Virus record (IMG/VR): IMGVR_UViG_3300034031_000013
Location: 1-64,000 of that record
Reading direction: 5' to 3' (one strand)
DNA length: 64,000 nucleotides
From: a virus
Positions within the stretch are counted from its first letter, which is position 1, and each line of letters starts with the position of its first letter. The notes beneath the pieces were generated by a model that had not been told where the DNA came from, searched no databases, and saw only the letters and a program-made list of their open reading frames with translations. Shown piece after piece: positions 1-12,582 of the stretch. Made by a program: the position numbers and the translations under genes.

Positions 1-141
1 CGGACGCAAGATTGCGGACTGCAAATATATACAGTCCTAACCTCGGTAAACAGCCATCCCATGAGTGGTCTCTCATTAGGCGTAAGTGTTTATCGGGGCT
101 TTCTTGTTAAACAAATATACGAAATTTAGTAACTTAGTATT

Positions 142-273
142 ATGTCAACCGAGGATAAGAAAAACCCAAAAGAAGCATCTAATATCTTTCATAGCATTAT
201 GAAAGCATCGGTAAAGCCCAAGAAAACCGATAAGGAAACAAAGGACAAACCTAAGTCTAAGCCTAAGAAGTGA
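142..273 (+). CDS. Small lysine-rich protein, 43 aa
   Basis: Short open frame with a plausible ATG, ending in TGA that overlaps the next gene's start. The product is strongly basic with a C-terminal lysine/proline-rich tail (KPKSKPKK). I do not recognise a family. It looks like one of the small charged proteins common at the edges of phage operons. The 17-bp AT-rich stretch in front has no clear Shine-Dalgarno, as is usual in Bacteroidota. Confidence 0.55.
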   Translation: MSTEDKKNPKEASNIFHSIMKASVKPKKTDKETKDKPKSKPKK

Positions 274-449
274 AAGACACGAACGGGGTAATACTTGGGG
301 TTATGTGTTTAGGAATGAGTATTTACTTATTCTATCCGCGGGCGAAAAAAGCAAACAGTAAACTCGAAGTGTACTTCCGTGTCAAAGCGGTTATAGGTGG
401 CATAATATCACTAACCGTTGGAATTTACTTACTGGTAAACAATCTCTGA
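270..449 (+). CDS. Small membrane protein, 59 aa, two transmembrane segments
   Basis: GTG start overlapping the stop of the preceding gene (GTGA arrangement), which argues for translational coupling. Two hydrophobic stretches (about residues 7-22 and 40-56) are separated by a basic loop (RAKKANSK), so the protein probably lies in the inner membrane as a hairpin. The size and topology would suit a holin or an exclusion protein, but nothing identifies the function. An internal ATG at 303 would remove part of the first membrane segment. Confidence 0.5.
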   Translation: MKDTNGVILGVMCLGMSIYLFYPRAKKANSKLEVYFRVKAVIGGIISLTVGIYLLVNNL

Positions 450-576
450 GCCTCGTGGTCTAACACGTATATAGTCTCCTATTATGTGGTAGGCGAAATG
501 GATAAATCAGGGTTATTGAAAGGGATAAGCGGCAATTTCTTAGTTTACAGATCACAAATAACAAAATACAAGGGCC

Positions 577-849
577 ATGAATAAAGAATACAACCAAGCC
601 TCCGAGGAAGAGAGGGAAGCAGAATACGAAAGATGTAAAGACCCGCTGTATCTGTACAACAATTATTGGCAGATAGACGGCAAGCCTGTAACACCTATGA
701 CGAGGGAAGAATGGGATGCTAGGAAAGATTACTTCGAATTAATTAGACAGCGAAGAGTGCCAGCAAGAAGTCTTGAATATTATACCGATCAAGCGATTAA
801 AGCAATAAGAAAGTTTCCTTTAACCCCTAATGAAGCAATAAAGAAATGA
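577..849 (+). CDS. Hypothetical protein, 90 aa
   Basis: Hydrophilic, rich in Glu, Lys, Tyr and Arg. A central section carries 'YNNYWQIDGKPVTPMT', a style seen in phage proteins of unknown function. The stop codon overlaps the start of the next gene (ATGA), so the two are probably co-translated. No catalytic motif seen. Confidence 0.7.
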   Translation: MNKEYNQASEEEREAEYERCKDPLYLYNNYWQIDGKPVTPMTREEWDARKDYFELIRQRRVPARSLEYYTDQAIKAIRKFPLTPNEAIKK

Positions 850-1103
850 ACAACGATTATAAATTCTACACAATAGCAATAGACTATCACTCAGGAAAAC
901 CATTGAACGATATGTTAAATATAAGTTCTGATGCCCTAGAGTTTGAATATGCCGAATTTGGCGAAGGAACGAGCGTTAGAGGGCTTCAATATTGGGACAC
1001 AGAGAAAAGTGCCATGAAGCGTGAAATGTACGTAGAACTCGCTAAAATAGGCGAAGCGGTTAGGCGCATCCATAAACTACACTCCGAAAGAATACCCGCC
1101 TAA
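846..1103 (+). CDS. Hypothetical protein, 85 aa
   Basis: Begins inside the stop codon of the upstream gene. The N-terminal half is acidic and the C-terminal half forms a basic helix (EAVRRIHKLHSER). It contains 'GTSVRGLQYWDTE', which resembles 'RTSVRGFDELE' in the small gene at 7978; the two may share a short conserved element. Function unknown. It is the last gene before about 1.1 kb without convincing coding sequence. Confidence 0.65.
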   Translation: MNNDYKFYTIAIDYHSGKPLNDMLNISSDALEFEYAEFGEGTSVRGLQYWDTEKSAMKREMYVELAKIGEAVRRIHKLHSERIPA

Positions 1104-2146
1104 TCCATCAAAACTGCCTTGATATTCTCACTAAACTTGTCCTATTCCAAACACAATAGGGCAACGAGTAGTAACGCCTCAACTACCAAACTTCAAGAAC
1201 CCCACTTGTTGGATAGCTTAAAATAAGACTTCCGAATAAGACAAGTATACTTTGCAATTCACAACCCCGTACTTAACACTGTTCCCGAGCATTCATTATC
1301 GTTACAATCTTTTTAATTGCACAACTATACTAGAGGGGGTTTCCTATCTGCCGAAGGCTACTATACAGCTTACTAGTCTATCCTCCATACTCAAGGTGGT
1401 TTAAGGTGAAACGATCCCAGGGTGAAGCTCTAGGGGTGAAAAAAAATTGCAAAAAATATTTTCGAGGTCTAGCGTTCAGTATAATCCCCCTAGTCAACCG
1501 CTCCTCATCATAATTGGGGAATGGGGCCGGGGCTTCGACCGCCTACCCCCTCAAAACGCAAATCAATCCCCTTAGCCAGTCTCTTACCCCTTAGTGACAT
1601 TGGTACATGGTAAACGGCAACAAGGCTATTAGATGCGCTTACAATCGCTCTACTAGTCTGCATGGGGAACCTGTTCTGTTGCGCTTCGAGGGGGAAAGAG
1701 TTAATCAATGTGTATTACAATCGCATAATCCACCAGTATACACACTGTATTACTAGCTGATTGTCAAGGGTTAATGAGATTGATTGGATTGGCTTAGTGT
1801 AGAGTAAGGGGTAGTCACCGCCTCAAAACACCACTTATATCCCAATTCCACCCAACAATATATAATTCTGCCTTATCCTCATTTCACCAAACATAATTCT
1901 ACCTGTGCTGCCTCAACCCGCTCTAACGTGTTACTCAAGGCATTTAACAGTATGTTATTAGGGGTGTTACTACAGTGTATCTGATATTACGCTGTTTAAA
2001 GCCCTGTGCTGAATTGTATTGTGTTTGTGGGGTTGTTATATGGTTTGGGTATATTAGGCTGTTATATGGGAGATATAGCCTTAATGACAATAATGTCTTA
2101 TGATTGGTTAGTGGTTTGTATTATATTGTTATTGTCTATATATAAG
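1104..2146. other. Gene-free region of about 1 kb
   Basis: No reading frame here has convincing codon use. The frames that do exist (minus 1508-1708; plus 2006-2242) need TTG or GTG starts and read like noise. The stretch is C- and T-rich on the plus strand, with an A-tract near 1440-1465. Such a region next to a repressor gene could hold a replication origin, a packaging site or untranslated RNA. I see no repeat array that would prove any of these. Confidence 0.6.
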
Positions 2147-2180
2147 AACTCCCTTTACAATGCCAGTCATAAAGGGAGTT
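2147..2180 (-). terminator. Perfect 10-bp inverted repeat, probable terminator
   Basis: AACTCCCTTT at 2147-2156 pairs perfectly with AAAGGGAGTT at 2171-2180 around a 14-nt loop. It lies 7 nt past the stop of the minus-strand gene 2188-2319, which suggests it ends that transcript. The T-run after it is weak, so termination may be partial. Confidence 0.5.
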
Positions 2181-2187
2181 TAACTAC

Positions 2188-2319
2188 TCAAATTACTACC
2201 TCGTTTAATCGGGGCTTGAGTACAATCTCATCAACCTCCTGATCTAACAGGCTAAAGTATTCACTCATAGAGATAGTTTTCCAGAATGAAGGCGCTTTAG
2301 TTGTTGGGTCAATAATCAT
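2188..2319 (-). CDS. Hypothetical protein, 43 aa
   Basis: ATG start and TGA stop; acidic product with 'FWKTISMSEYFSLLDQEVDEI'-type helical content and no recognisable family. The start overlaps the stop of a 17-codon upstream frame (2311-2364), and a stem-loop follows the stop, so it has the layout of a real small transcription unit downstream of the repressor. It could be a repressor partner or anti-repressor, but that is a guess from position. Confidence 0.5.
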   Translation of the reverse strand: MIIDPTTKAPSFWKTISMSEYFSLLDQEVDEIVLKPRLNEVVI

Positions 2320-2364
2320 TTTCACTTGCGGTGTGTGGTGTGTTTCCCTTTCCTTTTTCATCAT
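2311..2364 (-). CDS. Possible 17-aa leader peptide
   Basis: Starts ATGATG after an A-rich leader and ends in TGA, overlapping the next start by 9 bases. The product is charged (KKERETHH). It may simply be a leader that couples translation to the 43-aa gene downstream. Confidence 0.3.
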
Positions 2365-2973
2365 CGTTTTTTGTTTAGTTAGTTGATTTTTATTGTATTA
2401 GTGTATTGGCAGGTGCAACTTATCCAGCAATTCGATGTTATTAAACAAGAATAGCGTGGAACTGCTCTTTGAATCTTTCCTGCTCTGGTACTTGGTCTAC
2501 CAAACGGAGATTGAAACAAGGATACAGTTACCACGCTATTTTTGCGATGGGCTGTGCGCTTTGTTCCTTTCATCTCCGTTAAATTAAACTGACCAAGTTT
2601 TGAGCCGGATAAAGGTGTTATGCTTCGCTTTATAATGAGTTTATGTATAGGTTATTTCATAGGCGGTAGTTTGTCCTCTTTCATCTAATACAATAGATAC
2701 TAAAAAGGGTTGACGAATATAATAGTTTTTTTGCGTTAAGTACGTGTATACGTTTGAGATTATTTTTTTGTTTTAATTATTTTATTTATTCTAAGCGAAA
2801 CGAAGCTATTTTAAAGCGTTTAGATCGCATGTAATATCTTAATGATAGTTGTACTAGGTTAAATGTTTTTAGCTCATCACAGGCCGTAGAAATGCTCTTT
2901 ACTGCCAAACCCCGTATATCTCTATACAGGGCAGGCATAATTATAGAGACTTGCGGTAACTATAATTATCTCT
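2365..2973. other. Gene-free region downstream of the repressor
   Basis: Apart from the stem-loop at 2450-2543 I see no convincing gene here. The minus frame 2379-2573 has a fair ribosome-site-like GGAG, but its product is compositionally odd and overlaps the inverted repeat, so I treat it as non-coding. 2700-2860 is very AT-rich with T-runs. Confidence 0.5.
2450..2543 (+). ncRNA. Long-stem RNA hairpin ending in a T-run
   Basis: AATAGCGTGG-AACTG at 2450-2464 pairs with CAGTT-A-CCACGCTATT at 2525-2540, giving 15 bp with one bulged A, followed by TTTTT at 2539-2543. The 60-nt loop holds a second hairpin (TGGTA 2486-2490 with TACCA 2498-2502). This is the form of a small structured RNA with its own terminator on the plus strand. 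It would be antisense to any leftward repressor transcript, which suggests a role in the lysis-lysogeny switch. No promoter was identified for it. Confidence 0.4.
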
Positions 2974-3315
2974 TTAATCTCTTTTGTTTGTAAGTAAATT
3001 AAATAGCTTCTCTTTATCTGCTTTGAGTTCTTCTATTAATTGATTCTTACTATCTATCAATTGATCTTTAGTATTTAATATTTCCTGAACAGCCGGTGTA
3101 AACCCCATTTCAACTGGCGCAGGTTCAATAAGGAGCGCAAGATCAATGTTTAACTTTGTCTTTACATTCTCTATCATATCCAAGCTAAGTTTATCTCTAC
3201 CACACCAAGCAGTAAGCGTTTGGCGGCTTATTCCTAAACTCTTTGCGGCATCTTCCATTCTTAACCCATTGTTTTGCAAAGCTTGTTTTAAAATAATTCC
3301 CTTGATTTTCAGCAT
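2974..3315 (-). CDS. XRE-type helix-turn-helix repressor, 113 aa
   Basis: Residues about 15-50 form a classic helix-turn-helix (RMEDAAKSLGISRQTLTAW). The rest is a charged, heptad-like helix (KDQLIDSKNQLIEELKADKEKL) that should mediate dimerisation. There is no S24/LexA-type protease domain, so induction would need an anti-repressor rather than self-cleavage. I start it at the ATG at 3315 because the upstream TTG overlaps a -7 box (3331-3338). It faces the rightward early promoter at 3352-3382, which carries a palindrome between its two promoter elements, the arrangement of a phage immunity repressor. Confidence 0.85.
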   Translation of the reverse strand: MLKIKGIILKQALQNNGLRMEDAAKSLGISRQTLTAWCGRDKLSLDMIENVKTKLNIDLALLIEPAPVEMGFTPAVQEILNTKDQLIDSKNQLIEELKADKEKLFNLLTNKRD

Positions 3316-3330
3316 GTTATGTATTTGTGA

Positions 3331-3338
3331 CAAAAATA
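3331..3338 (-). promoter_or_regulatory. Probable promoter -7 box for the repressor gene
   Basis: Read on the minus strand this is TATTTTTG, an exact TAnnTTTG Bacteroidota -7 element, 15 bp before the repressor ATG. A -33 TTG is not obvious. Confidence 0.45.
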
Positions 3339-3351
3339 ACTATTTATTTAC

Positions 3352-3382
3352 TTGACAGATGTAAACATTTACTTTACATTTG
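3352..3382 (+). promoter_or_regulatory. Rightward early promoter with embedded operator
   Basis: TTG at 3352-3354, a 20-bp gap, then TACATTTG at 3375-3382 match the Bacteroidota housekeeping promoter. Between them sits the palindrome GTAAACATTTAC (3361-3372), and further GTAAATA-like half sites lie nearby. A repressor bound there would block RNA polymerase directly. The promoter would drive the early operon starting at 3445 or 3606. Confidence 0.65.
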
Positions 3383-3444
3383 TTTTGTCATTAGGAATTA
3401 ACGACTTCACAAAAGTACAACTTTTAATCAAATAACCAAACAAG

Positions 3445-3522
3445 ATGAAAACAGTAGCACAGATAGCATTAAATGTACAATCACTACAATATTTAAAACT
3501 ATTTGTAACAATTTGTAAATAA
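3445..3522 (+). CDS. Possible 25-aa leader peptide
   Basis: ATG to TAA, first frame after the early promoter. The product is short and partly hydrophobic (LKLFVTIC). It could be a leader or the remnant of a gene; only its position supports it. Confidence 0.3.
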   Translation: MKTVAQIALNVQSLQYLKLFVTICK

Positions 3523-3590
3523 CTCTTGTATTAATAAATAATTAGTTACACATTTGCTTTACAATAACCAACAATAACATTACAACATTT

Positions 3591-3602
3591 AAAAGACTTG
3601 CA
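3591..3602 (+). repeat. Leader motif AAAAGACTTGCA, copy 1
   Basis: Twelve-base motif ending 3 nt before the ATG at 3606. Identical copies precede three more genes (4234, 4939, 5361), see findings. Confidence 0.75.
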
Positions 3603-3605
3603 AAC

Positions 3606-4214
3606 ATGAAAACAACAATCACTTTAACAGACGAGAAACTTCAAGACATCTACACAGATGAACAATTTAGAAACCAAGTAGCGAACGCACACAGTTGCCT
3701 TGATTCAAATCACAATTTCAAACACAAGCAAACCTGCTCTTATCCTACTACATATATAGTAACAGAGGAACAAATTGAATTAGCCAAAGTAGAGAAATTA
3801 AGAGCCAAAGAGCAATTCATTAAAGACCACGAAAACGCTTTAATCTTTATCGGCATGGGCATGACTTATGAGCCGACGGAGGGCAATGATGTAGGAAACT
3901 ACAGAGTAAGAACACAATTCACTAACCCAAATGGCAGAACCTTCTTTATAGAGGTTTGCGGAGGCAGCAACGATTACAAATCTCATGTAACATACTCGAT
4001 TGATGTTGATTTACAAAAGAGAAGAGAAAGCGAAAAACCATATATACAAGACTACTACAACTATAACGGCTTAGAAAGAAACGCTAACCCGATATATACA
4101 AAAGAAAGCTTATTAAGCCTTGTAAATCGTCAATTCGACTGCAATTTCTCTGAAATTATAATAGATAACTACAATCTATCGCCGGACGATATCACCTGCA
4201 AAAGCCCTAATTAA
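3606..4214 (+). CDS. Early protein of unknown function, 202 aa
   Basis: First sizeable gene of the early operon. Hydrophilic, acidic and aromatic-rich, with no signal peptide or membrane segment. The middle (about residues 80-140) reads like a compact beta-rich domain (YRVRTQF, FFIEVCGG, VTYSIDVD). The C-terminus is acidic. It belongs to no family I recognise. Its place straight after the repressor-controlled promoter suggests an immediate-early takeover or anti-host function. Preceded by the 12-base leader motif rather than a Shine-Dalgarno. Confidence 0.75.
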   Translation: MKTTITLTDEKLQDIYTDEQFRNQVANAHSCLDSNHNFKHKQTCSYPTTYIVTEEQIELAKVEKLRAKEQFIKDHENALIFIGMGMTYEPTEGNDVGNYRVRTQFTNPNGRTFFIEVCGGSNDYKSHVTYSIDVDLQKRRESEKPYIQDYYNYNGLERNANPIYTKESLLSLVNRQFDCNFSEIIIDNYNLSPDDITCKSPN

Positions 4215-4233
4215 TCAAATATTAGCCACTACT

Positions 4234-4245
4234 AAAAGACTTGCA
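4234..4245 (+). repeat. Leader motif AAAAGACTTGCA, copy 2
   Basis: Ends 2 nt before the ATG at 4248. Confidence 0.75.
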
Positions 4246-4247
4246 CC

Positions 4248-4490
4248 ATGAACTGGAATAACATTGACTTAAAATCTAATTACGAGGCTTCACAAAACAT
4301 ACTAGAGCCTTTAAGCTTCGACATTCTCTTACTAGAAATACACTGCAATGCAAGAGAGATAAACGAGGCAACAGTTACCGCACAATTCGAAGAAGATTTA
4401 AGAAGCAAGATAGCGTCAGCGCGGGAAATATTCAAAGCCAACCTTGTAAATATTGTAAACCACGCTAAGGAAGAAAGGGCAAAACCATGA
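4248..4490 (+). CDS. Hypothetical protein, 80 aa, helical
   Basis: Mostly alpha-helical and charged (EEDLRSKIASAREIFKANL), cytoplasmic by composition. Stop overlaps the start of the next small gene (ATGA). Preceded by the second copy of the leader motif. Unknown function. Confidence 0.7.
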   Translation: MNWNNIDLKSNYEASQNILEPLSFDILLLEIHCNAREINEATVTAQFEEDLRSKIASAREIFKANLVNIVNHAKEERAKP

Positions 4491-4561
4491 AAATCATAAA
4501 AGCCCTTGCATGGATATGCGCAGTATTCCTGCTTATCCGACAGCTAATGAGTAAAGAATAA
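4487..4561 (+). CDS. Tiny membrane peptide, 24 aa
   Basis: ATG overlaps the upstream stop. One hydrophobic segment (LAWICAVFLLI) flanked by Lys/Arg on both sides. Such single-span peptides are common in phage early operons. It is the last frame before a 390-nt non-coding stretch. Confidence 0.45.
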   Translation: MKIIKALAWICAVFLLIRQLMSKE

Positions 4562-4577
4562 ACAAATGGTTAGTTGA

Positions 4578-4632
4578 TGCCTGATTGACGACAGGACTTG
4601 AGAAAGTCAGAGGCTCGTAACCTCGTCAGGCA
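4578..4632 (+). ncRNA. Three-way-junction RNA, tRNA-like outline
   Basis: TGCCTGA (4578-4584) pairs with TCAGGCA (4626-4632), closing two inner hairpins: GACTT-GAGA-AAGTC (4595-4608) and GAGG-CTCGTAA-CCTC (4610-4624, seven-base loop). This resembles a tRNA acceptor, D-arm and anticodon arm without a T-arm. It is the first folded element of the gene-free stretch 4562-4954 that ends in the hammerhead ribozyme. More stems occur further on (for example CTGAA-AGAG-TTCAG near 4768), so the whole stretch is probably one structured RNA. Confidence 0.45.
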
Positions 4633-4861
4633 CTAAGTGAAACAGCAAAGAGAGGGAATAAGCCGTTTGCCTCTGAAAATAAAGCTAAAGTAAAAGACCA
4701 ATCGAAAGTGATTGTAGGGTATATGCTTTAACACCCGAAACAAAGGTTAAGCCGTCCAGCAGACTGAAAGAGTTCAGGAATTTAAAAGAGCCTGATTTAA
4801 TTACTGCATCATAATCGGAACGAAACAACCCCTCAAGCTTGAAATAGTGCTACGGGCATAA

Positions 4862-4933
4862 GTTAAAAGACTATACGTCTATAGCTCAATGCTATACTGA
4901 TGAGGCCAAAGGGAAGAGGCCGAAACGTTTAAC
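4862..4933 (+). ncRNA. Hammerhead ribozyme, type III topology
   Basis: All core elements are present in order. CTGATGA is at 4897-4903. Stem II is GGCC (4904-4907) with GGCC (4918-4921). GAAA follows at 4922-4925. Stem I is TATAGC (4880-4885) with GCTATA (4891-4896) around a five-base loop. Stem III is ACGT (4875-4878) with ACGT (4925-4928), extended across a bulge by GTTAA (4862-4866) with TTAAC (4929-4933). The base before the cut is C4879 in a GUC triplet, so self-cleavage is predicted between 4879 and 4880. Because stem III carries both ends, it is type III. Cleavage would separate the upstream structured RNA and genes from the gene at 4955. Confidence 0.88.
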
Positions 4934-4938
4934 TAATT

Positions 4939-4950
4939 AAAAGACTTGCA
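4939..4950 (+). repeat. Leader motif AAAAGACTTGCA, copy 3
   Basis: Lies between the hammerhead and the ATG at 4955. Confidence 0.75.
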
Positions 4951-4954
4951 AATT

Positions 4955-5320
4955 ATGGGGACTTTAAAAACATTGGACTTACCTAACCACATTCAAGAAC
5001 TTACCCTTTGCGATAAGGATAATTTAAGTTTCGATTATCAAAACAATAGTCACTATTGGATGACAGAAACAGAGGAAGAGTATAAAAAGGTACTGTCTAA
5101 AATAGACAAGTTGAAGATGGAAAATAAAACATACCTAATATATGCATGGTATGATATTTCCTCATTCGATTATTGGAAACGAGAAAGAGATACCAATTAC
5201 ATCCAATTAACGGTAGTTATTAAAAAACCAATTCTCACCAACAAACAGATATACAGATTAGAAAACGACCTAAATAAATTAGACACAAAAGCGTGTATAA
5301 TCCTTTCGGACATAAACTAG
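4955..5320 (+). CDS. Hypothetical protein, 121 aa
   Basis: I choose the ATG at 4955 because the TTG nine bases upstream is part of the conserved leader motif. Charged and tyrosine/tryptophan-rich, with a beta-like core (KTYLIYAWYDIS, IQLTVVIKKPI). No family recognised. It is the gene whose mRNA would gain a new 5' end from hammerhead cleavage 75 nt upstream. Confidence 0.7.
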   Translation: MGTLKTLDLPNHIQELTLCDKDNLSFDYQNNSHYWMTETEEEYKKVLSKIDKLKMENKTYLIYAWYDISSFDYWKRERDTNYIQLTVVIKKPILTNKQIYRLENDLNKLDTKACIILSDIN

Positions 5321-5360
5321 AATTAACCCCTATGAATATTAACACGCCTTAAACCACTAA

Positions 5361-5372
5361 AAAAGACTTGCA
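5361..5372 (+). repeat. Leader motif AAAAGACTTGCA, copy 4
   Basis: The last A of the motif is the first base of the ATG at 5372. Confidence 0.75.
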
Positions 5373-5626
5373 TGAAAAAGATCATCATCACATTATCAAT
5401 TGTATTTAGTGCCTTTCTAGTACAGGCACAGACAGCAAAGAAAGACCCTACAGGTAATTACATAGAGGTAACCAAAGAAAGCACCGCAAAATTAACGGAT
5501 AAAACCTTTACCACCTTAAAAGGCGAAGTTTTTAAGGTCTACGAAACGGACAAAGGGAGGCTATTTGTAAAGCGCAAGAGTGCCAAGACTGGCAAATCTT
5601 ACAATCAATATCTAAAAGTTAATTAG
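5372..5626 (+). CDS. Secreted or periplasmic protein, 84 aa
   Basis: Clear signal peptide (residues 1-19, KKIIITLSIVFSAFLVQAQ) of the Bacteroidota type ending in AQA/AQT. The mature part, about 65 residues, is basic with a conserved-looking stretch (TLKGEVFKVYETDKGRLFVKR). Similar small exported proteins are frequent in Bacteroidota chromosomes and phages without known function. An envelope role in the infected or lysogenic cell is plausible. Confidence 0.75.
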   Translation: MKKIIITLSIVFSAFLVQAQTAKKDPTGNYIEVTKESTAKLTDKTFTTLKGEVFKVYETDKGRLFVKRKSAKTGKSYNQYLKVN

Positions 5627-5637
5627 GAGGCTGAAAG

Positions 5638-5832
5638 ATGGAAAATAAGCCACTTACAAAAAGCCAAGCCATTCAAGCCTGTAAAAAGGAGCTAAGAGAG
5701 TGGATAATGGTTAAACGCCTATATCATTTAAGGATAGACGAAATTAACGCCTGTACGGTACGAGTAAGCGCAGTACATGACGGAGTTTATTACAGTAGAC
5801 AAGCAAAGTTTAACACCAATGAGCCATTTTAA
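5638..5832 (+). CDS. Hypothetical protein, 64 aa
   Basis: One of the few genes here with a strong Shine-Dalgarno (GGAGG, 7 bases before ATG). Basic N-terminal helix followed by a beta-like half (CTVRVSAVHDGVYYSRQAKF). Its end overlaps the start of the next small gene in another frame. Unknown function. Confidence 0.65.
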   Translation: MENKPLTKSQAIQACKKELREWIMVKRLYHLRIDEINACTVRVSAVHDGVYYSRQAKFNTNEPF

Positions 5833-5941
5833 AATATGCTTTCTAATTGGTCACAATTGGAAAGGCTTGCCAGGGTATTTAGATATATCAAATTTAGTTT
5901 ATAAAAAGAAATTTTGCAAACGATGTTTAGCAACCAAATGA
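5819..5941 (+). CDS. Small zinc-finger-like protein, 40 aa
   Basis: Overlaps the preceding gene by 14 bases and has its own ATG. The pattern C-x6-W-x18-CKRC, with 'FLIGHNWKG' early on, matches the layout of small phage proteins that bind zinc with a GH-W element and a terminal CxxC. Its stop overlaps the next ATG. Reading all three overlapping small genes (5819, 5938, 6072) with ATGA junctions gives a continuous coding run. Confidence 0.6.
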   Translation: MSHFKICFLIGHNWKGLPGYLDISNLVYKKKFCKRCLATK

Positions 5942-6075
5942 AACTCTTTCTCCCCCTCCTATTAGCCTTTTTAATAGGCGTTACACTAGGCTTGATACTA
6001 GGAACAAGGAAACCAAAGCTAAACTACTTACAGCCTCAAAACTGCATCGCTCACCCTCCTATATTCAGGGCATGA
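5938..6075 (+). CDS. Small membrane protein, 45 aa
   Basis: ATG overlaps the stop of the previous gene and the TGA overlaps the ATG of the next. N-terminal hydrophobic helix (LFLPLLLAFLIGVTLGLILG) then a basic, proline-rich tail. Likely a single-span inner-membrane protein. A longer form could begin at 5923. Confidence 0.55.
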   Translation: MKLFLPLLLAFLIGVTLGLILGTRKPKLNYLQPQNCIAHPPIFRA

Positions 6076-6269
6076 AAGAGTATCAAAGACAGCTAAGAGA
6101 GGGAGGGGTTAAAGCATTGCTAATCAAGTTAGACGTTAAAGAAAAGCAGGAACGCTACGAGGAATGTGAGGAAATAGTTCAGGCTATCAGAGAGTTTAAC
6201 CAAGCGAATGAAAAGAACTATCCTACCCGATTAACAACGGATTTAAAAAAGCAATTACAATTAACATGA
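6072..6269 (+). CDS. Hypothetical helical protein, 65 aa
   Basis: Highly charged helix throughout (KEKQERYEECEEIVQAIREFNQA); probably a coiled coil. Overlaps both neighbours by 4 bases. Unknown function. Confidence 0.65.
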   Translation: MKEYQRQLREGGVKALLIKLDVKEKQERYEECEEIVQAIREFNQANEKNYPTRLTTDLKKQLQLT

Positions 6270-6436
6270 ATAAAGAAACAAACTTCATAGGCTATTCCAA
6301 TGGAGTACCCTATGATATACTTGATATAAGGCACGATAAGGAGAATATCGGGTTAATACGTGTATTTGGATTTGATGCGCCTGTATGGTGCTTATTTGAT
6401 CGGATAACGCAAAGGAGTTCAATTAATGGAAAGTAA
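6266..6436 (+). CDS. Hypothetical protein, 56 aa
   Basis: Overlaps the previous stop. Aromatic and beta-rich (YSNGVPYDILDIRH, GLIRVFGFDAPVW). No family recognised; included because it fits exactly between overlapping genes with no gap. Confidence 0.55.
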   Translation: MNKETNFIGYSNGVPYDILDIRHDKENIGLIRVFGFDAPVWCLFDRITQRSSINGK

Positions 6437-6439
6437 GAT

Positions 6440-6640
6440 ATGTATTCGCTTTTAACAATCATAGATGCGCGTATTCAAGCGTACGACATAAACCTTACCC
6501 AATGCGAAAATAACCTTGAAGCTGAATATTGGAGAGGCAGGTTAGCGGAAGCAATGGAACTATTACAGGAAGTGTTAAACATGGCAGAGGCAGACAGTGA
6601 CGAAAATGATGATTTTGAACCTTATCTCGGTCAGGATTAA
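6440..6640 (+). CDS. Hypothetical acidic helical protein, 66 aa
   Basis: Amphipathic helices then a strongly acidic tail (EADSDENDDFEPYL). The stop TAA shares its last base with the next ATG. Acidic small phage proteins can mimic DNA or bind host enzymes, but no motif supports that here. Confidence 0.65.
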   Translation: MYSLLTIIDARIQAYDINLTQCENNLEAEYWRGRLAEAMELLQEVLNMAEADSDENDDFEPYLGQD

Positions 6641-6816
6641 TGGAAACACGCCAAATAACAACCATCCGCAACGCCCTTAACAGACGCAAGGAGATAAGAC
6701 AAGGGCTAAAGTGTACTAACATAGCCTATGACCTTTGGATAGCTAGTTTAAGCTATGAAACAGGGCTAACAGTAGAATTTATAATTGATAATCTGGAAAT
6801 AATTAAGGAGCTATGA
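6640..6816 (+). CDS. Hypothetical protein, 58 aa
   Basis: Starts on the last base of the previous stop (TAATG) and ends overlapping the next start (ATGA). Basic N-terminal half (RNALNRRKEIRQG), then a helical part. Possibly a small nucleic-acid-binding protein; unproven. Confidence 0.55.
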   Translation: METRQITTIRNALNRRKEIRQGLKCTNIAYDLWIASLSYETGLTVEFIIDNLEIIKEL

Positions 6817-7094
6817 AAGAACTAAAAACCACCATAGAGAATACAGGACTTGTAAACAGGATAGATGACTTAATCAACCAATGGACTTGCCCTGATATAG
6901 ATAAGTATGCAGACGGTTCATACTCCCTTTATCTTTCCTTTACAGAACTATCAGCAAAAGACATCTCTAAAGAGATAGTAGAGTTAATGGTAGAGTTTAT
7001 CATGGCTACAGATTCACGAAACTACAGTAGAAGAGTATACGAAGCCTCTGTAAATCATTTTTTGAAAGAACGATATAAAGAACCCAAGCCATGA
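6813..7094 (+). CDS. Hypothetical protein, 93 aa
   Basis: Soluble, mixed alpha/beta (YSLYLSFTELSAKDISKEIVELM). GGAG lies close before the start. Overlaps both neighbours by 4 bases. No recognised family. Confidence 0.65.
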   Translation: MKELKTTIENTGLVNRIDDLINQWTCPDIDKYADGSYSLYLSFTELSAKDISKEIVELMVEFIMATDSRNYSRRVYEASVNHFLKERYKEPKP

Positions 7095-7294
7095 CCACAA
7101 TCCCAAACCAAATCATTCAATCAGCCTCCCTTATAGCAAGAGAGGTGTACAGCGATTTAAAGAACCTAGGACGAGTTACAGACTACATTCAAGAGAATAG
7201 TCACACAGCAGATTTTGAACTGTCTGACGGCTTCCGAATGAGGGCTATCGAGAAGAAGAACGAGTTCTACTATAATATTTTCAGAGCAAGTTAA
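7091..7294 (+). CDS. Hypothetical protein, 67 aa
   Basis: Last gene of the first run of overlapping small genes. Helical N-terminus and a short beta-like end (FELSDGFRMRAIEKKNEFYYNI). Followed directly by a structured non-coding stretch. Confidence 0.6.
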   Translation: MTTIPNQIIQSASLIAREVYSDLKNLGRVTDYIQENSHTADFELSDGFRMRAIEKKNEFYYNIFRAS

Positions 7295-7300
7295 AATATT

Positions 7301-7462
7301 AAATACTTCCTGCTTGAAGTAAGATCGGTGATACTAATATATCCGATGAAAGACGCAGAATAAAACTGATGGAGGCTGCGATTCAGAGTATCATATTCCA
7401 AACGCTTTTACAGAGAGAGACACGGCTACTGACCCGAACATTCCTAGTGACAGGAAGTATTT
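7301..7462 (+). ncRNA. Structured RNA with 12-bp closing stem
   Basis: AAATACTTCCTG (7301-7312) pairs perfectly with CAGGAAGTATTT (7451-7462), enclosing 138 nt. Inside, ATCGG (7324-7328) pairs with CCGAT (7343-7347), and GATACT in that loop (7330-7335) can pair with AGTATC (7387-7392), a pseudoknot. CGCAG (7354-7358) pairs with CTGCG (7376-7380). A tRNA-like element starts 7 nt later and a terminator follows at 7648. No known family was recognised; it may be a ribozyme, an intron remnant or a stand-alone phage RNA. Confidence 0.5.
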
Positions 7463-7469
7463 ATCATAT

Positions 7470-7539
7470 CTGCCTTTAGTTTAAGCAAAACAACCCTTGC
7501 AAGTGGGGAGATGGAGGTTCGAATCCTTAAGGCAGACCA
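7470..7539 (+). tRNA. tRNA-like element, possibly degenerate
   Basis: Acceptor CTGCCTT pairs with AAGGCAG, followed by A and an encoded CCA. D-arm is GTTT-AAGCA-AAAC. The T-arm is GAGG-TTCGAAT-CCTT with a standard T-loop. The anticodon arm is poor: CCCT-TGCAAGT-GGGG gives anticodon CAA but with G instead of U at position 33, while a shifted loop with U33 would read GCA (Cys) but lose a stem pair. D-loop and T-stem are one base short. It is either a divergent phage tRNA or a tRNA mimic. Confidence 0.5.
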
Positions 7540-7647
7540 ATGTGCGCACAATCGTTCTTTTTAACCATCCCAATTTAATCAACTGTTAATTTTTTAAACA
7601 CTTCTTAAATTGTATCTACAAATCTAATGTTCCTGACGAAAGAACAC

Positions 7648-7676
7648 GCCCGTATCTGCACTGTACGGGCTTTTTT
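7648..7676 (+). terminator. Rho-independent terminator
   Basis: GCCCGTA (7648-7654) with TACGGGC (7664-7670) then six T. A smaller hairpin (TGTTC/GAACA, 7629-7646) sits just in front. Ends the transcript that carries the small-gene run and the RNA elements. Confidence 0.85.
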
Positions 7677-7689
7677 ATTAACCAAGATG

Positions 7690-7849
7690 CTAATTAAGCT
7701 AGTTTAACATGAACAGCCACAGCCTGCGCGCTGACCTTAGTAGTGCCTATCTAACAGACTGCAATAATTCTGGGGCGTGAAGAGTAAGAGGTGAGATGCC
7801 TCATTAGAATAGTTGAGGGAAAGGCTTGAAATATAGTCTTTCCTTTTTT
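7690..7849 (+). ncRNA. Possible small RNA between two terminators
   Basis: About 130 nt without a reading frame lies between the terminator at 7648 and another at 7818. It contains short hairpins such as GAGG-TGAGATG-CCTC. The layout fits a separate small RNA or a 5' regulatory leader that controls the viperin unit by attenuation. No promoter box was identified with confidence. Confidence 0.35.
7818..7849 (+). terminator. Rho-independent terminator or attenuator
   Basis: GGAAAG (7818-7823) with CTTTCC (7838-7843), then six T. It lies 23 nt before the first gene of the viperin unit. Confidence 0.75.
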
Positions 7850-7871
7850 ATCACCCCTAACCTAACCAATT

Positions 7872-7976
7872 ATGGAACCCTACAAATTAGCTATAGTACT
7901 ATTTGCCTTGATAGATGCAATAATAATTGTATACAGCTTATCAAGCGCAATGGAGGATAATACAGAGGAATTTTGA
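7872..7976 (+). CDS. Small membrane protein, 34 aa
   Basis: Single hydrophobic helix (LAIVLFALIDAIIIVYSL) then an acidic tail. First frame after the attenuator-like terminator and 1 base before the next gene. Plausible single-span protein of unknown role. Confidence 0.45.
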   Translation: MEPYKLAIVLFALIDAIIIVYSLSSAMEDNTEEF

Positions 7977-7977
7977 T

Positions 7978-8121
7978 ATGAGAGAAAGAACATCGGTAAG
8001 AGGCTTTGATGAATTAGAGACATTGCCAAGAGCAGAACCAATATCAGGCATCCCTTTACACCTTACAAGAGAAGAGATAAGGAAGTTCTACGAGAAGAAG
8101 AAACTACAGAATAATAAATAA
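7978..8121 (+). CDS. Hypothetical protein, 47 aa
   Basis: I use the ATG at 7978; a longer frame upstream overlaps the preceding gene and lacks a good start. It has the 'TSVRG' string shared with the gene at 846 and a basic C-terminus (REEIRKFYEKKK). Four bases separate it from the viperin gene, so the two are co-transcribed. Confidence 0.55.
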   Translation: MRERTSVRGFDELETLPRAEPISGIPLHLTREEIRKFYEKKKLQNNK

Positions 8122-12493: not shown

Positions 12494-12564
12494 TGGGGGA
12501 TAGTTTAATTAATAGAACGTTGGCTTCATGCCATCAGATGCAGGTTTGAATCCTGCTCCCTCAA
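12494..12564 (+). tRNA. tRNA, best fold has anticodon UCA
   Basis: Acceptor TGGGGGA (12494-12500) pairs with TCCCTCA (12557-12563), with discriminator A and no CCA directly after. D-arm is GTTT with GAAC; the T-arm is a full GCAGG-TTTGAAT-CCTGC. The anticodon arm GTTGG-CTTCATG-CCATC (one T-T mismatch) has U33 and anticodon UCA, which reads the stop codon UGA. If shifted by one it would be CAU (Met), but the stem is then broken. UGA is used as a normal stop by this phage, so a UCA tRNA would be a suppressor. Confidence 0.72.
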
Positions 12565-12582
12565 CTAACCAAATCAAGCACC

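Follow-up and report, generated by a model that had tools for sequence, protein, structure and literature searches.

A hammerhead ribozyme predicted between two early genes of a phage raises the question of which RNA it serves: the messenger of the gene that follows, the transcript that precedes it, or neither. The DNA analyzed here (the window) is taken from a virus record of 75.9 kb, of which it covers the first 64 kb. The portal protein shares ~25% identity with portals from phages of Maribacter, Cellulophaga, and Flavobacterium, and an integrase-like gene is present, so the source probably is a temperate phage infecting a member of the Bacteroidota. An Erf-alignment search of the GTDB genomes gave no relative and hence no host or prophage, and the GenBank phage records held no DNA resembling window positions 1-8000. 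The ribozyme lies among small genes 5 kb upstream of the Erf and exonuclease genes, a position that makes an early transcript plausible. The comparative evidence set out below makes it fairly probable that the hammerhead, by cleaving itself, ends a structured noncoding RNA of the phage, ~320 nt long, on its 3' side and frees this RNA from the following gene. The features of the locus are as follows.

4562..4879 (+): noncoding region with no gene called, partly conserved in a related phage; putative structured phage RNA that the ribozyme would release
4677..4770 (+): conserved core GACC-hairpin-GTAGG-hairpin-CCGAAACAAAG; similar to L133 1657-1749, with one compensatory pair
4799..4867 (+): 3' domain of the RNA, adjoining the ribozyme; alignment (z 5.1) to the equivalent stretch immediately ahead of the L156 hammerhead
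4872..4933 (+): type III hammerhead ribozyme (start originally placed at 4862); Rfam Hammerhead_3 and independent model R1 (4873-4931)
4872..4878 (+): stem III 5' strand (open stem), partner 4925-4931, one T-T mismatch
4877..4880 (+): GTC triplet and the bond C4879|T4880 at which cleavage is predicted; from the sequence and the Hammerhead_3 alignment
4880..4896 (+): stem I hairpin TATAGC-TCAAT-GCTATA; 6/6 pairs, 4880-4885 with 4891-4896
4897..4903 (+): catalytic core strand CUGAUGA (DNA CTGATGA), read from the sequence
4904..4921 (+): stem II hairpin GGCC-AAAGGGAAGA-GGCC; 4/4 pairs, 4904-4907 with 4918-4921
4922..4931 (+): core GAAA (4922-4925) with the 3' strand of stem III
4936..4950 (+): ATTAAAAGACTTGCA, the leader motif shared by the genes at 3606, 4248, 4955, and 5372, each of which has a copy in front; here it separates the ribozyme from the start codon
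4955..5320 (+): downstream gene for a protein of 121 aa outside the known families

Judged by its sequence, the element is a genuine-looking type III hammerhead, as had been proposed. It carries CUGANGA, GAAA, and the UH preceding the cleavage site, with the GTC ending at C4879 as originally read; stems I and II are closed and stem III is open with one mismatch. The Rfam model Hammerhead_3 (RF00008) aligned to 4872-4931 (+) with 42.9 bits (E 4.1e-8 in 501 nt and 1.4e-6 in 17 kb), a significant match by E although just below the curated cut-off (gathering score) of 48.5 bits, which is why a default Rfam scan missed it. A second covariance model, R1, for which 28 further type III hammerheads from phages were aligned, leaving out the window and its relatives, gave 47.0 bits (E ~1.5e-12 in 273 kb, a rough value), so that the covariance model search suggested as a check returned a match from both models. 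A degenerate hammerhead core pattern had a single match in the window, whereas 100 shuffles contained no match. The element shares with RF00008 the core, the three stems, the open stem III, and the GUC cleavage site, and differs in a weak stem III with one mismatch, a longer loop II (10 nt), and the score just under the cut-off.

The pairing of three stems held for stems I and II but not in full for stem III, where the originally drawn helix of GTTAAA (4862-4867) with TTTAAC (4928-4933) requires an 8-nt bulge. The alignments to both models instead give a continuous helix of seven positions, 4872-4878 with 4925-4931 and one T-T mismatch, which is 1.5 kcal/mol better (-12.9 versus -11.4 kcal/mol). 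Plain folding favors a competing helix (CGUC/GAUG) that buries the cleavage site (-15.0 versus -12.9), and of 18 consensus hammerheads that Perreault et al. tested in vitro, 4 showed no activity (PMC3088659); the element might thus be a hammerhead by sequence yet inactive, or its cleavage functionless. The competing helix does not exclude activity because plain folding ignores tertiary contacts, and the complete core, the covarying stems across phages, and the recurrent position of the ribozyme make such inertness very improbable. Loss of covariation in relatives, which had been named as a sign against the ribozyme, was not seen among phage type III hammerheads generally: 98.5% of stem cells in the 28-sequence alignment were paired with heavy two-sided change, a figure that is inflated and weaker than it looks because the sequences were typed and chosen partly by pairing.

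The surroundings of phage hammerheads were surveyed in IMG/VR stretches (~120) that contain a core with closed stem II; home-made typing and gene calls scored 38 elements in them as type III and 93 as type I. The typical type III element cuts a median of 34 nt after a stop codon, although genes may have been overlooked in a few of the long upstream gaps, and lies ~20 nt before the next start, with the start codon at most 40 nt away in 25/30. Most therefore occupy tight gene-gene junctions without a long upstream RNA, and the window hammerhead belongs to a minority with a long noncoding stretch upstream. The prevalence of such junctions counts against a role tied to noncoding RNA, as junction cutting without one is the commoner arrangement. 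It also agrees with a general intercistronic cutter that uncouples the decay or translation of neighboring messages in long operons, the upstream RNA being one more cistron, as does the presence of three or four hammerheads at several loci; this reading leaves the conserved noncoding RNAs and the constant 3'-side ribozyme described below unexplained and is considered quite unlikely.

The short distance to the downstream gene suggests a further role. The ATG at 4955 follows 4933 by 21 nt (originally given as 22 nt before the gene), with the leader motif in between; its segment AAAAGACTTGCA (4939-4950) stands 0-4 nt before four start codons in the window, and the motif copies are at 3588-3602, 4231-4245, 4936-4950, and 5358-5371. 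A partial copy, TTAAAAGACTATAC, was also present at 4863-4871 in the 5' flank of the hammerhead. Cleavage could provide a defined ~75-nt 5'-OH mRNA leader that sets the stability or translation of this gene, the upstream noncoding DNA being incidental. Besides the 21-nt spacing and the ~20 nt usual before start codons in phage type III hammerheads, a precedent for in vivo use, which supports the preferred 3'-end reading as well, comes from the haloviruses HF1/HF2, where a hammerhead is placed 13 nt before an early helicase gene and the transcript 5' end lies no more than 3 nt from the cleavage site (PMC3088659). The HF1/HF2 element (HHphage) resembles that of the window in that only a few nt separate it from an early phage gene, with the transcript end near the cut; it differs in belonging to archaeal viruses and in its variant core, and a long upstream RNA is not mentioned in the available text (PMC3088659). 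Against a service to the downstream gene, the RNA and ribozyme persist while the downstream genes are unrelated in nine long-RNA cases, and the related phage contig L123 encodes a 27%-identical relative of the downstream protein with neither a ribozyme nor a related RNA in front. A search of viral contigs with the 121-aa protein itself gave no relative. A leader function for the downstream gene is accordingly regarded as unlikely.

The preferred reading, in which the ribozyme serves the RNA upstream of it, directs attention to 4562-4879. No gene was called in these ~320 nt, whose only ORFs are two overlapping opposite-strand TTG ORFs of 36 and 47 aa; the called upstream gene ends 388 nt from the cleavage site, or 318 nt if counted from a possible 24-aa ORF. 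The Rfam 15 models identified no described RNA family in 4562-4879, the best matches being at chance level, and no terminator-like site was found between the RNA and the downstream gene. Single-sequence folds of the upstream RNA were not more stable than shuffles, which counts against a structured RNA. Phages are known to encode giant noncoding RNAs such as GOLLD and ROOL that are long and structured; unlike these, the window RNA matches no Rfam family.

Conservation of this stretch was identified in relatives obtained by Erf-protein searches (L122-L125 and L147-L149), and is based on few sequences. Window positions 4677-4770 aligned with L133 1657-1749, in the noncoding region of L122/L133, at 68% over 95 columns, with 25/26 in the middle of the core and a shuffle z of 9.9. 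In this relative the RNA is followed by a twister-P1 candidate in the place of the hammerhead (L122: 40.2 bits, E 2.4e-5) and then by a similar short gap and start codon. A further twister-P1 candidate occurs in L147 (39.3 bits, E ~4.1e-5), where 264 noncoding nt precede it; its distance upstream of Erf is 5.2 kb, compared with 5.3 kb for the window hammerhead, and the RNA before it has weak similarity to that of the window (z 3.5). The L122 and L147 matches do not reach the RF03160 curated score of 67.2 and both are held as candidates, placed like a twister. The L122 phage also has a second noncoding stretch of 612 nt ending in a type III hammerhead (L156 2541-2595), the last ~70 nt of which align with the last ~70 nt of the window RNA (z 5.1). 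No ribozyme was found in the partial contigs L123-L125, a point against the 3'-end reading. A strict RNA-core pattern matched the L122 contig only in IMG/VR, and a slightly different strict pattern had no match in the GTDB genomes. Of 13 further loci given by a looser pattern, the 11 other than L143/L145 were set aside as chance, their regions looking coding by appearance; L143/L145 lie in a noncoding stretch of a tRNA cluster and were rejected as members since their pairing differs.

A second RNA with the same layout (family B, the window RNA and its relatives being family A) was found as a covarying RNA of 450-650 nt in the five phages L148, L043, L158, L160, and L154. The type III hammerhead of L148 is preceded by a long noncoding region, from which one conserved string retrieved L043, L158, and L160; L154, from the L149 phage, is recognizably related. 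A type III hammerhead is located at the 3' side of the RNA in 5/5, with that of L160 imperfect due to an extra base at the core/stem II junction and giving no match to R1. Three close members displayed 19 compensatory pairs with an alifold z of -5.3 versus column shuffles. The same winged-helix-like gene precedes the RNA in all five phages, and the genes on its 3' side differ in every one. No homology was detectable between families A and B, and nothing similar to either was present in the GenBank phage records.

Throughout the nine long-RNA cases, the downstream genes are mutually dissimilar, so that the conserved unit is the RNA plus ribozyme rather than the ribozyme plus gene; as the pair is kept while the downstream genes change, the ribozyme is argued to serve the upstream RNA. 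The original suggestion that the ribozyme separates a structured RNA from the downstream mRNA thereby gains comparative support, from the part of the RNA shared with L122/L133 and followed there by a twister-P1 candidate, and from the family B hammerheads (5/5) before unrelated genes. In the proposed mechanism, the noncoding RNA, ribozyme, and following gene would be carried on one transcript, and the hammerhead would fold during transcription and, by homology, cut after C4879. As the 5' product, the noncoding RNA would keep only a short tail and end in a 2',3'-cyclic phosphate; as the 3' product, the mRNA of the next gene would begin with a 5'-OH and retain the ribozyme body. Other self-cleaving ribozymes would suffice provided that they cut at their own 5' edge, which fits the replacement by twister-P1 candidates in relatives. 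Alignments place the cleavage site at the 5' edge of type III hammerheads, and that of P1 twisters is also at the 5' edge of the ribozyme, so either kind would leave the upstream RNA nearly without ribozyme sequence.

Self-cleaving ribozymes are common in phage genomes, and the hammerhead class itself is already known. No description of ribozyme-terminated long phage RNAs was found in the literature covered, which included few subscription journals, and within it such RNAs look undescribed. The chances appear evenly balanced that these loci represent undescribed families of long, structured phage RNAs that owe their 3' ends to built-in interchangeable ribozymes (type III hammerhead or P1 twister). 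If so, this would be one reason for phages to carry such ribozymes, and the recurring layout points to uncharacterized phage RNAs. An enrichment of both hammerheads and twisters around the same phage genes is described, with the reason given as unknown, in a report citing earlier surveys (PMC10085705). The present loci similarly have two ribozyme classes in like locations, and differ in that the common neighbor is an upstream noncoding RNA and not a protein gene. The combination of noncoding RNA, ribozyme, unrelated genes, and an apparent class swap offers a testable answer for some of these ribozyme-gene associations.

Several other elements were identified in the surveyed phages. Just upstream of its conserved RNA, L133 has two copies of a noncoding unit (478-579 and 1515-1620) that are 72% alike over 107 columns and finish with the same 38 nt. 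RT-17-like RNAs (L122 3779-3868 and L123 4737-4839) were rejected as relatives of the window RNA, the GACC...GUAG-hairpin-CGAA resemblance being superficial; they lie directly before genes resembling reverse transcriptases, which is suggestive of the diversity-generating retroelement (DGR) type. The apparently noncoding ~540 nt inside the phage tRNA cluster of L145 (170-710; also in L143) has GCCGAATCAAAGAAGCA in common with L122 and gave no Rfam match. Type III hammerheads also follow several hundred nt of apparently noncoding DNA in L036, L045, L081, and L033, where profile searches found no relation to families A or B. Between two and four hammerheads each occur at L108, L016, L121, L093, L111, and L056, and in the L149 contig a type I hammerhead core lies at 4961-5010, with a likely second at ~4563-4612 (by eye), between short genes and without a long RNA. 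A permuted tmRNA match (55 bits, above the Rfam cut-off) was identified in the phage contig L125 at 4193-4414 (+) with tRNAs on either side. In the window, a tRNA-like gene with anticodon TCA at 12494-12565 (+) was called as tRNA-SeC by ARAGORN, yet it has an ordinary length (~72 nt) and could be an opal suppressor.
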